Shown piece by piece: positions 2,815-5,717 of a stretch of 5,717 nt of DNA. The first letter of the stretch is position 1. Every line of letters starts with the position of its first letter. Below the pieces are notes generated by a model, which ran no database searches, was not told where the DNA came from, and worked only from the letters and a program-made list of their open reading frames with translations. Source of the DNA: Deltaproteobacteria bacterium (lineage in GTDB: Bacteria > Desulfobacterota > DSM-4660 > Desulfatiglandales > Desulfatiglandaceae); NCBI GenBank assembly GCA_003646995.1, contig QMLZ01000203.1:1-5717 (forward strand), in the 5' to 3' direction. The translations under genes were made by a program, and so were the position numbers.

Positions 2815-3672
2815 TTATCTATTTTCTAGGTAAACCAGCAACCCCACAGAAAGGATAATCAACCCTGCCCCCCAGTAAAAATAAATCCCTGGGAACTCAC
2901 CCATAAAGGCCATACCCCCCAGGGTCGCAAGAACAGGTTCCAGGAGAAGTGCAAGGTTGACCTTGTAGATCTCAATATGTCTCGATGCCCAGTTAAGGAG
3001 TGAATGGCCCGTAAGATTTGGCCCCAGTGCAAGGAGGACGATCATGATCCAGCTTATGGTACTATAGCCGCTGAGCCTTTCTCCTGTGGCCAATAAATAG
3101 ATGAGGCAGAATACTGAGGCGGCGCCATAGACTTGAATGAGATATTTGGCAAAATCAGGATCTGCTTTAAACATGCGAGCGATCATCAGGTACAGGGCGA
3201 CGAATGCAGCCGAGGAGATGGCGAGCAAATCCCCCAATAGCCTGCTATGCATGAGGGCCACGTCAGATGAAACGATCAAATACATGCCTACTCCAGCAAG
3301 CAGGAAAAAGGGTAGCGTGGATCTGGGAGGCGCCTCCTTCAGAAACAAGGCTGAAAAAAGGGCTGCAAATAATGGATGAGTGCCTTGCAAGAAAATGGAG
3401 TTGGCAATAGTTGTCATCTGAAGAGAGGCTATCCACGTGATAAAATGACCCGCTAGGAAAAACCCTGCCAACACATATTGCCACCGAAACCCGTGAATGG
3501 AGGAGGACAGTCCTCGCCTGCATGCATGCACAGGAAACAGTACGCCCATGGTGATAAAGACCCGGTAAAATGCTATCACACCAAAAGGCACTGCGCCTGC
3601 CCACCGAACAAGAAGAGAACTACTTGAGGCAATCAGCACTCCGGTGATAAGTAGCCCATATATCCTGGCCAT
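2815..3672 (-). CDS. EamA/DMT-superfamily membrane transporter
   Basis: The 285-residue, very hydrophobic protein has about ten predicted transmembrane helices (roughly 4-22, 29-49, 64-85, 88-111, 117-136, 144-166, 174-197, 204-228, 238-258, 263-282), the 5+5 inverted-duplication layout of drug/metabolite transporters. Family signatures are visible: FYRVFITMGVLF in helix 2, ANSIFLQGTHPLFAALFSALFLKE in helix 4, and ALGPNLTGHSLLNWA with LLEPVLATL in the second EamA half. It sits in the cytoplasmic membrane and probably exports or imports a small metabolite or amino acid; the substrate cannot be read from sequence. The ATG at 3672 has no convincing Shine-Dalgarno (a GGGGG run is about 14 nt upstream), but it gives a complete first helix and the next Met is at residue 42. 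It is monocistronic in view and divergent from iclR. Confidence 0.88.
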   Translation of the reverse strand: MARIYGLLITGVLIASSSSLLVRWAGAVPFGVIAFYRVFITMGVLFPVHACRRGLSSSIHGFRWQYVLAGFFLAGHFITWIASLQMTTIANSIFLQGTHPLFAALFSALFLKEAPPRSTLPFFLLAGVGMYLIVSSDVALMHSRLLGDLLAISSAAFVALYLMIARMFKADPDFAKYLIQVYGAASVFCLIYLLATGERLSGYSTISWIMIVLLALGPNLTGHSLLNWASRHIEIYKVNLALLLEPVLATLGGMAFMGEFPGIYFYWGAGLIILSVGLLVYLENR

Positions 3673-3703
3673 GTTATCTTAAGTAAACCCCCGCTTTCTA
3701 ATA

Positions 3704-3805
3704 TCTCCCCATTTGGTTGGGACTGGTGGTCAAAGCCTAGTAGTTAAGCTTTGGGCTTACAAGAAAAATAATGCGCCCCTGGGTCCCACCAAATCTAAGG
3801 GGAGA
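3704..3805. repeat. Long imperfect inverted repeat between divergent genes
   Basis: The left arm at 3704-3723 (TCTCCCC followed by ATTTGGTTGGGAC) pairs with the right arm at 3783-3805 (GTCCCACCAAAT, then CTAA, then GGGGAGA). That gives 19 base pairs interrupted by a 1-nt bulge (T at 3717/3718) and a 4-nt bulge (3795-3798). The 59-nt interior contains a smaller stem, AAGCC at 3733-3737 with GGCTT at 3754-3758, so a branched structure is possible. No T-run follows on either strand, so it is not an intrinsic terminator. It could be an RNA structure in a leader, a cruciform, or a small non-autonomous repeat element. I do not recognise a known riboswitch or tRNA. Confidence 0.65.
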
Positions 3806-3820
3806 AAAAAAATCGGTCAA
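3792..3820 (-). promoter_or_regulatory. Possible sigma-70 promoter of the DMT transporter
   Basis: On the minus strand, TTGACC (3820-3815) is followed after 17 bp by TAGATT (3797-3792), a 5/6 and a 4/6 match to the -35 and -10 hexamers. A transcript would start near 3785, inside the right arm of the inverted repeat, with a leader of about 110 nt. The -10 match is modest, so this is tentative. Confidence 0.35.
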
Positions 3821-3826
3821 AAGGTA

Positions 3827-3855
3827 TTGACACGAAATTTTAAAAGTTATATGCT
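3827..3855 (+). promoter_or_regulatory. Sigma-70-type promoter of iclR
   Basis: A perfect -35 TTGACA (3827-3832), a 17-bp spacer and -10 TATGCT (3850-3855) lie directly upstream of the IclR gene. The predicted transcription start is about 3861-3863, leaving a leader of only about 23 nt. The palindromic operator at 3875-3891 lies just downstream of the start point, suited to blocking transcription initiation or early elongation. Confidence 0.75.
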
Positions 3856-3874
3856 CCCAAAAAAACTGAACATA

Positions 3875-3891
3875 ATTTCATATTATGAAAC
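3875..3891. promoter_or_regulatory. Palindromic operator overlapping the iclR start codon
   Basis: TTTCATA-T-TATGAAA is a perfect 7+1+7 palindrome at 3876-3890, and its right half contains the iclR ATG (3885-3887). Its reverse complement over 17 bp matches the site at 4661-4677 at 16 of 17 positions. IclR-family regulators typically bind short palindromes of about this size, so autoregulation by the adjacent IclR protein is the natural inference. Confidence 0.7.
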
Positions 3892-4634
3892 TCTCATCTT
3901 TAGACAAGAGTTTAAGAATCATTGACCTTCTGGCCCAAAACCCAAAAGGTCTTACCCTGGCAGCAATATCCCAGGCATTACAGATTCCTAGCAGTACCGC
4001 CCACCACATCTTAGCAACCTTTGTTTCCCATGGATATGTCTCCAAAGACCCTGAGACCAGGAAGTATTCGCTAGGGTTTAAATTCGTTTCCGTCAGCAAA
4101 ACTATCTTGGAAAACCTCGACGTTCGTCAGATTGCACATGACTATTTAGTAAAACTTCACGAAAGGTGCAGGGAGAGCGTCTTCCTGGCAGTCTTACGCG
4201 ATGGCAAGATCGCTTATATCGACCGAATCAATTATCTCAGTGGACTCTCCCTTGCTACTAATGTGGGCTTTACAACAGAGCCCCATGCTACTGCCGGGGG
4301 AAAGGTCCTCCTTTCCGGTCTGAGCCGGCAAGAGATCGAACGGATTTACAGGTCTAGACGCCTTCGTCGCTATGGGAAAAATACAATAACGGCCTTGCAC
4401 GACCTTTTCAAAGAGCTGGAAAAGGTAAGACAACAAGGGTACGCCATCGACGATGAGGAGTATTATGAAGGGGTTAGATGCGTGGGCGCGCCAATTTGTG
4501 CCGGAGGCAAGATTATAGCGGCCCTTAGCATTACGGGCTCAGTCTTTTCCATGACAATGGAGAGAATTCAAGATGAATTGATAGAGCTCGCGGTAGAAAC
4601 GGCAATGGAAATCTCTTCCCAAATGAAGTGGTAA
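3885..4634 (+). CDS. IclR-family transcriptional regulator
   Basis: The 249-residue protein has the family's standard two-domain layout and length. Residues 5-64 form the N-terminal winged helix-turn-helix (LDKSLRIIDLL opening, helix-turn-helix about 25-46 with IPSSTAHHILATF, wing ending RKYSLG). Residues about 75-249 form the GAF-like effector domain, with HATAGGKVLLSGL, the GYAIDDEEYYEGVRCVGAPI signature and the AALSITG strand. It should bind DNA as a dimer or tetramer and respond to a small carboxylic or aromatic-type metabolite, as many relatives do; the ligand here is unknown. The ATG is the only ATG, GTG or TTG that retains the full HTH, since an in-frame TAA lies at 3873, yet no Shine-Dalgarno is visible and the start codon lies inside the palindrome. 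It is 58 bp upstream of porG and codirectional, and probably regulates that operon and itself. Confidence 0.93.
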   Translation: MKLSSLDKSLRIIDLLAQNPKGLTLAAISQALQIPSSTAHHILATFVSHGYVSKDPETRKYSLGFKFVSVSKTILENLDVRQIAHDYLVKLHERCRESVFLAVLRDGKIAYIDRINYLSGLSLATNVGFTTEPHATAGGKVLLSGLSRQEIERIYRSRRLRRYGKNTITALHDLFKELEKVRQQGYAIDDEEYYEGVRCVGAPICAGGKIIAALSITGSVFSMTMERIQDELIELAVETAMEISSQMKW

Positions 4635-4660
4635 TTTTTTTGCGTATAGTTGTGAAGCTT

Positions 4661-4677
4661 ATTTCATAATATGAAAT
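4661..4677. promoter_or_regulatory. Palindromic operator upstream of porG
   Basis: ATTTCATA-A-TATGAAAT is a perfect 8+1+8 palindrome. It ends 4 bp before the porG ribosome-binding site and covers a possible -10 (CATAAT, 4665-4670), though no good -35 is present at 17 bp. It is the near twin of the site at 3875-3891, which ties the IclR gene to the oxidoreductase operon. Binding here could repress transcription, or translation access if the RNA also folds. Confidence 0.7.
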
Positions 4678-4681
4678 CAAT

Positions 4682-4695
4682 AGGAGCAAAATGTG
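4682..4695 (+). promoter_or_regulatory. Ribosome-binding site and GTG start of porG with overlapping ATG-TGA
   Basis: AGGAG at 4682-4686 is followed after 6 nt by GTG at 4693. Two bases earlier, ATG at 4691 is followed at once by TGA (a start-stop pair in another frame). The porG frame can begin only at the GTG, because homologous PorG proteins start a few residues before the GRGGQG motif, as this one does. Confidence 0.65.
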
Positions 4696-5247
4696 AAAGA
4701 AATCTGTATTTACGGTAGAGGTGGACAGGGTTCTCTGGTTCTCGCCCAATTTATGGCAATAGCAGCCTTAGAGGACAATAAATACGGACAGGCCTTTCCT
4801 TTTCTGGGCGGAGGGGGAGAAAGAAGAGGCAAGCCTATCATGGCCTTTTGCAGGTTGGACAATACCCCTATTAGACTGAGGAGCCGAGTTAGTCAAGCTG
4901 ATTACCTTATTGTACAAGATGCTACTATTTTCAAAGACGAACCTGTCCTTGATAAGGTCAAACCTGGGGGAATTGTATTAGTGAATACAGAAAGGAAGCC
5001 AGAAGAACTCGGCATAGCAAAAGATGTCTGTGTGCATACTGTACAAGCAGAGAAACTCGCACGTGAAATCCTTGGTCGCCCTATCATGAATACAGCTCTT
5101 CTGGGGGCCTTCGCTGCTGTGACAAAGGAGCTCAGTTTGGAAGCTACGTTGAAGGCTGTTCGAAAAAAGTTCCCGGGAGAGTTAGGGGAGAACAATGCTT
5201 GGGTGGTAGAGAAAACTTACAAGGCACTCGTTGGGGGTCATTCATAA
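4693..5247 (+). CDS. porG: 2-oxoacid:ferredoxin oxidoreductase gamma subunit (PorG type)
   Basis: The 184-residue protein is full length for the gamma subunit of pyruvate/2-oxoacid ferredoxin oxidoreductases. It opens with the hallmark IYGRGGQG (GRGGQG at 8-13), followed by QAFPFLGGGGERRGKPIMAF (33-52), PIRLRSRVSQADYLIVQD and a C-terminal NTALLGAFAAVT segment. Gamma forms a Rossmann-like domain of the cytoplasmic heterotetramer that decarboxylates a 2-oxoacid to an acyl-CoA and reduces ferredoxin. The loop before ERRG has four glycines, about two residues more than the FFGxERRG I would expect. It is the first gene of the operon, starts with GTG, and its stop overlaps porD by one base (TAATG). 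Pyruvate is the default substrate; an aromatic or branched-chain 2-oxoacid cannot be excluded. Confidence 0.9.
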   Translation: MKEICIYGRGGQGSLVLAQFMAIAALEDNKYGQAFPFLGGGGERRGKPIMAFCRLDNTPIRLRSRVSQADYLIVQDATIFKDEPVLDKVKPGGIVLVNTERKPEELGIAKDVCVHTVQAEKLAREILGRPIMNTALLGAFAAVTKELSLEATLKAVRKKFPGELGENNAWVVEKTYKALVGGHS

Positions 5248-5504
5248 TGAGAATAACCATGGGAGCTGTTGTGGCTGGTGGAACCTCACTTGAGTACAAA
5301 ACCGGGTCATGGCGCGATCAACGCCCTATTATCGATCAAGATCTATGCAAAAAATGTGGCATTTGTGAAAGTGTCTGCCCTGACAGTTCGGTTCACGAAC
5401 AAGACGAAATCTATTTCATTGACTATGACTACTGCAAGGGTTGTGGTCTTTGCGCCTATGAATGCCCGGCTGATGCAATCAAGATGATCCCGGAGGAAAA
5501 ATAA
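5247..5504 (+). CDS. porD: 2-oxoacid:ferredoxin oxidoreductase delta subunit, 2x[4Fe-4S] ferredoxin (PorD type)
   Basis: The 85-residue protein has the canonical PorD opening (GAVVAGGTSLEYKTGSWR, 6-23), then two ferredoxin motifs: CKKCGICESVCP (Cys 34, 37, 40, 44) and CKGCGLCAYECP (Cys 63, 66, 69, 73). All eight ligand cysteines are present, so two [4Fe-4S] clusters should carry electrons from the thiamine diphosphate site to external ferredoxin. The ATG at 5247 shares its A with the porG stop, has GGGGGT about 8 nt upstream and starts at the conserved N-terminus; an in-frame start at 5199 would add 16 residues unlike the family. It is followed with zero spacing by porA, showing a single transcript and likely translational coupling. 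Confidence 0.95.
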   Translation: MRITMGAVVAGGTSLEYKTGSWRDQRPIIDQDLCKKCGICESVCPDSSVHEQDEIYFIDYDYCKGCGLCAYECPADAIKMIPEEK

Positions 5505-5717
5505 ATGACCAACACAGAGGTTTTAGAAGGATCTGAGGCAGTCGCTCTTGCTGTGAAGGCCTGTCGTCCTCAAGTCATTTCAGCTTATCCCATTAGCCCC
5601 CAAACCCATATTGTTGAGGCGCTCGCCAGGATGGTCGCAAACGGCGATCTTGATTCTGAATACGTCCGAGTTGAATCAGAGTTTTCTGCAGCGAGTGTGG
5701 TTAGCGGTGCTTCTGCC
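5505..5717 (+). CDS. porA: 2-oxoacid:ferredoxin oxidoreductase alpha subunit (PorA type), 3'-truncated by the window edge
   Basis: The ATG at 5505 follows the porD stop immediately (TAAATG) and has GGAGG at 5492-5496 with an 8-nt spacing. The 71 visible residues carry the alpha-subunit N-terminal signature: [34 protein letters not shown], then [20 protein letters not shown]. In family proteins this region (YPITPQT, ESEHSA) lines the thiamine diphosphate and substrate site. Here Phe replaces the usual His after the SE, a substitution worth noting for substrate choice. The full subunit is about 390 residues; porB with the TPP-binding beta subunit is expected next, outside the window. Confidence 0.92.

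Follow-up and report, generated by a model that had tools for sequence, protein, structure and literature searches.

The two palindromes that flank the iclR gene in the 5717-bp stretch analysed here (hereafter the window) are very likely the operators of the IclR-family regulator encoded between them, through which, judging from sequence comparison, this regulator would control both its own gene and the adjacent por operon. This is very probably the standard IclR arrangement of autoregulation plus regulation of an adjacent operon, with a conserved three-box operator as its most interesting addition. It provides a well-supported predicted operator for a group of IclR proteins of anaerobic Desulfobacterota-like bacteria that we did not find described in the open-licence PMC literature, where no paper on an IclR-por operator system was found either, and it ties this group to a ferredoxin-linked 2-oxoacid oxidoreductase operon.

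The por-side site is a 17-bp perfect palindrome on the plus strand (ATTTCATAATATGAAAT, 4661-4677), and the iclR-side site, on the same strand, is a 15-bp perfect palindrome spanning the iclR start codon (TTTCATATTATGAAA, 3876-3890). The first-pass annotation had placed both sites correctly, at the iclR start and before porG, and its agreement of 16 in 17 positions between the reverse complement of 3875-3891 and 4661-4677 holds; its description of each as a perfect 17-bp palindrome stands for 4661-4677 only, since in 3875-3891 the outer letters A3875 and C3891 are unpaired and the symmetry is perfect over 15 bp. It had also seen no further copy, and indeed TTTCATAWTATGAAA at up to three mismatches matches only these two places in the window, wherein 0.18 matches are expected and two or more occurred in 4 of 200 shuffles. 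The two palindromes lie 786 bp apart, with centres at -24 relative to porG and -2 relative to iclR, and the predicted iclR start ATG (3885) falls inside the iclR-side site, so that the right arm ATGAAA doubles as the Met-Lys start of the protein.

Conservation was examined at the loci of all window-IclR matches at E <= 1e-60 in overlapping searches of 85, 3, 389, 395 and 5 genomes, which gave 17 relatives in 16 genomes (42-86% identical), all chosen by protein similarity and none by motif, and thus 18 loci with the window; these loci are related to each other, five pairs being at least 70% identical. When a site was called as TTTCAT-N3-ATGAAA with at least 10 of the 12 letters, one was present 5′ of iclR in 17 of the 18 loci, lying within 200 bp in 16 of them; in the seventeenth, L125 (scanned over 320-330 bp upstream), the site is exact and stands 309 bp 5′ of the gene. 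The single locus with no site, L131, belongs to the most distant relative (42% identity). Between iclR and the next gene a site was found in 11 of the 18 loci (the window, L110, L111, L112, L113, L114, L116, L117, L120, L129 and L130), and none was found after iclR in the other seven (L115, L121, L122, L123, L124, L125 and L131). The palindrome proposed in the first-pass annotation is therefore kept at orthologous loci. Nor is it randomly scattered, the outcome that would have spoken against an operator: at 11 or more matching letters, of the sites in 259,395 bp of locus sequence, 15 were upstream of iclR, 10 were downstream of it, and the sole remaining one is the L125 copy at 309 bp, itself before an iclR gene. 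For L117, L116, L122 and L130, gene ends are off by 3-24 bp in the site and promoter counts and were corrected for the downstream side only, and the start codon of L117 is uncertain.

The downstream site follows the por genes incompletely. porG comes after iclR in 13 of the 18 loci, eight of which have a site in between and five of which do not, and L111, L114 and L116 keep both sites though genes other than por come after iclR. In the five por loci that lack a por-side site, por may be reached by readthrough from iclR. Conservation, concentration at the locus, fit to the group-1 IclR motif and covariation with the recognition helix all favour the operator reading, while the five site-less por loci count against it. 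One genome (G002) carries two members of the IclR group (at L114 and L120), each with a site on both sides, one member lying before por and the other before NuoF-like genes, divergent from a KDPG/KHG-aldolase cluster.

The motif is also largely specific to this group of regulators. Among 75 IclR genes that are more distant (28-45% identity), a single one had a site with at least 11 of 12 letters in the 150 bp upstream, versus 15 of the 18 loci here (Fisher 1.6e-13), where the distant genes were scanned over 150 bp and the orthologs over 110 bp, and one of 76 distant loci was left out for too little upstream DNA; at the looser cut-off of 10 letters, 8 of the 75 distant genes had a match. At the genome level, G017 (3.9 Mb) has exact A/T-centred TTTCATWWWATGAAA sites on either side of iclR and nowhere else, and G030 (4.1 Mb), which holds the closest relative (86%), has a single one, at iclR, its por-side site reading TTTCATAACATGAGA. 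When any centre was allowed, 15 genomes contained 26 exact TTTCATNNNATGAAA sites as against one for the reversed-pattern control; 15 of the 26 lie at loci of the window's IclR group and one (in G457) directly 5′ of another IclR gene. The surroundings of eight of the ten exact sites elsewhere were examined and revealed no pattern (the remaining two are in G025 C182 and G030 C71), and the nine single-mismatch sites in G030 and G017, all examined, delineated no coherent gene set. The first-pass annotation had anticipated that the motif would lead to further genes of the pathway and hence to its substrate; no wider regulon emerged in G017 and G030, the two relatives scanned, and since exact A/T-centred copies are confined to the locus in these genomes, the motif is a signature of this locus and not of a broad set of genes. 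Among the single-mismatch copies, G017 and G030 share an identical 15-mer (TTTCATTAAATGGAA), in both cases within a reading frame of response-regulator type (L146 1501-1515 and L147 1501-1515), and another in G017 (L148 1501-1515), possibly by chance, lies over the predicted start of an isopropylmalate/citramalate-synthase-like gene.

The sites agree with what Suvorova and Gelfand (2021; PMC8222616) give for IclR-family operators, namely the group-1 motif GKTYCRYW3-4RYGRAMC and its subgroup WTT-11-AAW, WTTYCRYW3RYGRAAW, to which the por-side site fits at 17 of 17 positions and the iclR-side site at 16 of 17. Both window sites likewise fit KTYCRYW3RYGRAM, that is, the group-1 half-sites YC-R-Y and R-Y-GR around a W3 centre. 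In the same paper, group-1 site centres are commonest at -22 with a second peak at -3 to +1, close to the window's -24 and -2, and its family rule of autoregulation plus an adjacent operon matches the arrangement here. A difference is that Delta/Epsilonproteobacteria make up 0% of the subgroup in Table 2 of that source (PMC8222616).

Within the protein, recognition helix residues 40-41 are His-His, invariant in the 22 proteins aligned and present at 17 of the 18 loci of the group. Residue 41 was compared with site letters 3/13 in the 21 loci that have a good site, defined as a group-1 score of at least 14 and at least five of six arm pairs (L044 and L048 were left out): His41 goes with T/A in 13 loci and C/A in one, and Arg41 with C/G in four, C/A in one and T/A in two. 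This association (Fisher 0.0055) is largely confounded with phylogeny, as the His41 proteins form a single clade and T/A is retained at two of the sites that go with Arg41. The telling case is L122, which lies inside the clade and escapes that confounding, and which carries Arg41 together with the site TTCCAT-AAT-ATGGAA.

An additional half-site, missed by the first-pass annotation, lies on the 5′ side of the palindrome and gives the conserved three-box pattern ATGAAA-N5-TTTCAT-N3-ATGAAA. When 28 sites were aligned (17 upstream and 11 downstream), ATGAAA with at least five of six letters stood exactly 5 bp before TTTCAT in 13 (10 of 17 upstream and 3 of 11 downstream), as compared with three occurrences in all at the 19 other 5′ gaps from 0 to 19 bp and three at 3′-side gaps of 0-14 bp. 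The RAA core is present at this place in 27 of 28 sites, against a background of 4.9%, and no other offset has it in more than 16 of 28. In the window itself the box is degenerate before the iclR operator (ACTGAA, 3865-3870, plus strand; 3/6 to ATGAAA and 5/6 to RYGRAA) and weak before the por-side operator (TGTGAA, 4651-4656, plus strand; 2/6 and 3/6, respectively), the core GAA being kept in both. In L122 the third box reads ATGGAA, so that all three half-sites differ together (GG/CC); with Arg41 for His41 and TTCCAT/ATGGAA throughout, this locus offers an experiment of nature through which recognition by IclR, and the alternative dimerisation proposed for this family, can be tested directly.

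Three-box operators have precedents in the family, since PMC8222616 lists PcaU, PobR, HmgR and 32 orthologous groups, and because the 5′ pair TGAAA-N5-TTTCA has the group-2 spacing published there, the operator of this group of loci belongs to the three-box type. In the PcaU/PobR/HmgR-type operators, too, the direction alternates over three half-sites, which form one pair at group-1 spacing and another at group-2 spacing; however, their half-site sequence differs, they govern aromatic ring cleavage whereas the genes here are ferredoxin-linked, and in the window itself the third box is degenerate (PMC8222616). At one mismatch, the three-box pattern had eight matches in 85 genomes (three at this locus, one before another IclR gene and four elsewhere) and the reversed pattern had none. 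The match before another IclR gene, found by the DNA pattern alone, is at L156 1501-1526, 5′ of an unrelated IclR-family gene (PF09339, PF01614). Certain distant IclR genes whose sites have other letters show a third box at the corresponding position as well, such as L017 with ATGAAA-N5-TTTCGT-N3-ACGAAA; others, L062 and L065 among them, are without it.

A predicted iclR promoter lies on the plus strand directly before the operator, with TTGACA at 3827-3832, a 17-bp spacer and TATGCT at 3850-3855 (10 of 12 consensus letters). Promoter-like matches in 3600-4800 number four versus 1.9 in shuffles, which is not significant alone; in the 16 loci scored (the promoter geometry of L125 was not counted), a TTGAC[AG] -35 element lies upstream of the operator in 14, and the operator starts 8-28 bp after the best-scoring -10 in 15, L115 being the exception. 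An operator 8-28 bp past the iclR -10 suits repression by blocking of initiation or escape. On the por side, no canonical promoter was found, and a run of seven T (4635-4641, plus strand) ends 21 bp before the operator. In 8 of 11 loci, the window included, a run of 5 to 8 T has this same end point, exactly 21 bp ahead of the downstream operator, while in these eight the operator starts at anything from 25 to 34 bp past the iclR stop codon; at the upstream sites, TTTTT stands at this offset in just 2 of 17. As a speculation, should the operator's A/T centre serve as the por -10, this would place the T-run near -40, where UP elements bind. No terminator-like site was detected on the plus strand in 3600-4800, so that readthrough from iclR into por is possible.

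Based on these findings, we propose that an IclR dimer would dock on TTTCAT-N3-ATGAAA, and that the third half-site 5 bp 5′ of it might be contacted by one more subunit or by a dimer in another register. At iclR, where the operator is just 3′ of the TTGACA/TATGCT promoter, bound IclR would repress its own transcription, and at por, occupation of the operator between iclR and porG would block either an overlapping por promoter or readthrough from iclR. The regulator would be released by a metabolite, which probably arises along the catabolic pathway that supplies Por with its 2-oxoacid. A further, tentative idea, which we consider possible though rather unlikely, is that the asymmetric operator with its three half-sites comprises two dimer sites that overlap and have opposite order, group 2 and then group 1, between which IclR would exchange register upon effector binding, so that iclR (with the stronger third box in relatives) and por (with the weaker one, plus the fixed-distance T-run) would respond at thresholds of their own, or one might even be turned on as the other is turned off.

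Other ways in which the same regulator could use these sites have to be weighed. IclR might bind them and activate por, or repress iclR while activating por; the IclR family comprises repressors, activators and dual regulators according to PMC8222616, and a por side with a fixed T-run and without a canonical promoter might suit an assisted promoter. Such activation is nevertheless unlikely, as the iclR-side operator takes the repressor position 3′ of the promoter in nearly all loci scored, and the por-side operator lies just ~24 bp before porG. Pairing of the two operators by an IclR tetramer, which would loop out the iclR gene, would draw on the tetrameric binding recorded for IclR proteins in PMC8222616 and on the joint presence of both sites in 11 loci at 765-838 bp. 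Yet no common helical phase is evident in these 11 distances, as judged by eye, and of the 17 loci that have the upstream site, 6 lack the second, which makes looping distinctly unlikely.

The remaining alternatives deny the palindromes to the window IclR or to DNA binding altogether. Perfect palindromes suit many dimeric regulators, and another transcription factor could in principle own them, but the motif tracks the IclR gene across loci of otherwise different neighbours, fits the IclR consensus of PMC8222616 and covaries with the IclR helix, so that a foreign factor is highly unlikely. Leader RNA hairpins acting in translation or attenuation are extremely unlikely and were set aside after folding and Rfam tests: the predicted folds of both sites are slightly more stable than those of shuffled sequences (z -3.55 and -2.02), as any palindrome's would be, but they reach just -2.8 and -2.6 kcal/mol with loops of 3-5 bases, show no Rfam match at the gathering threshold, and would leave the same-strand third half-site and the covariation with the DNA-binding helix unexplained. 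That chance produced the pair, helped by the conserved Met-Lys start whose codons form the iclR-side right arm, has a next to negligible probability. This arm is indeed coding, and 50 of 1000 first-order Markov sequences of window length contained two or more such 15-bp palindromes; none of the 1000, however, had two with identical arms, and a start-codon constraint is contradicted by conservation, as 14 of the 17 upstream sites lie outside the predicted start codon and are still conserved. Operators of the IclR encoded between them stay the preferred reading.

With respect to the regulator itself, the 249-residue product of iclR (3885-4634, plus strand) is an IclR-family protein by PF09339 (61.5 bits, cut-off 22) and PF01614 (135.4 bits, cut-off 24), and it reached no NCBIfam equivalog cut-off. 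It scores well below the NCBIfam equivalog cut-offs for KdgR, the KDG regulon repressor after which JGI names some relatives (147.7, cut-off 275), and for IclR (120.2, cut-off 380). KdgR and E. coli IclR belong to the same protein family and also have A/T-rich palindromes, but their half-sites run in the opposite order (RWWGAAACGNCGTTTCAKKA; TGGAAATNATTTCCA) to those here. The closest solved structure by whole-protein sequence is 1mkm (124 bits, a low similarity), the IclR-family regulator TM0065. The Thermotoga sites in PMC8222616 are of group 2 only, unlike the group-1 sites here. A viral-contig search with the window IclR protein gave no relative.

The putative target operon starts with porG (4693-5247, plus strand; PF01558), the gamma subunit of a 2-oxoacid:ferredoxin oxidoreductase, preceded by an RBS-like AGGAG (4682-4686, plus strand), and continues on the same strand with porD (5247-5504), the delta subunit (4Fe-4S), and porA (5505-5717; PF01855), the alpha subunit, which is truncated by the window end and 92% identical to the porA of L110. 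The proteins fall into the pyruvate/2-ketoisovalerate family by TIGR02175 (171.3, cut-off 81.1) for PorG and TIGR02179 (98.5, cut-off 60.05) for PorD. The pyruvate-specific PorGDAB equivalog cut-offs were missed by the window PorG (198.5 of 225) and by L110 PorA (489.9 of 550) and PorB (369.5 of 405); because the pyruvate models score best for the Por subunits but stay under cut-off, the Por substrate is not settled.

In the relatives the operon runs on as porG-D-A-B, and after por, at least 6 of the 13 por loci (several being cut by contig ends) contain a kduD-like dehydrogenase gene, and at least 6 of 13, with the same limit, an HpaB-family gene closest to 4-hydroxybutyryl-CoA dehydratase (1u8v). 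This dehydratase-like gene lies at L110 11765-12379 and L121 8084-9607, the L121 protein scoring 546 bits against 1u8v, and also in L123, L124, L125 and L130, hinting at a 4-hydroxybutyrate-type route. Other neighbours differ from locus to locus: L113 has a DctP-type binding protein together with galactarate-dehydratase-like genes, L129 has a Liv-type permease and also a molybdopterin hydroxylase, and L114 has a NuoF-like gene along with a KDPG/KHG aldolase; the common element across these varied neighbourhoods is ferredoxin-linked 2-oxoacid oxidation.

Three genes lie upstream of iclR in the window: a sarcosine-oxidase-alpha-like one (1-1890), whose reading frame is open at the window start, a small one of GCV_T type (2116-2727) and, on the minus strand, an EamA transporter gene (2815-3672). 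The first two are shared with L110 (76% and 66%, respectively), where a gene for a SoxB/ThiO-like FAD oxidoreductase stands in place of the EamA gene. At 1965-2032, the window carries an imperfect 8/16-bp tandem repeat (GGAATGGT / TGGAATAGTGGAATAG) that lies between its soxA-like and GCV_T genes.
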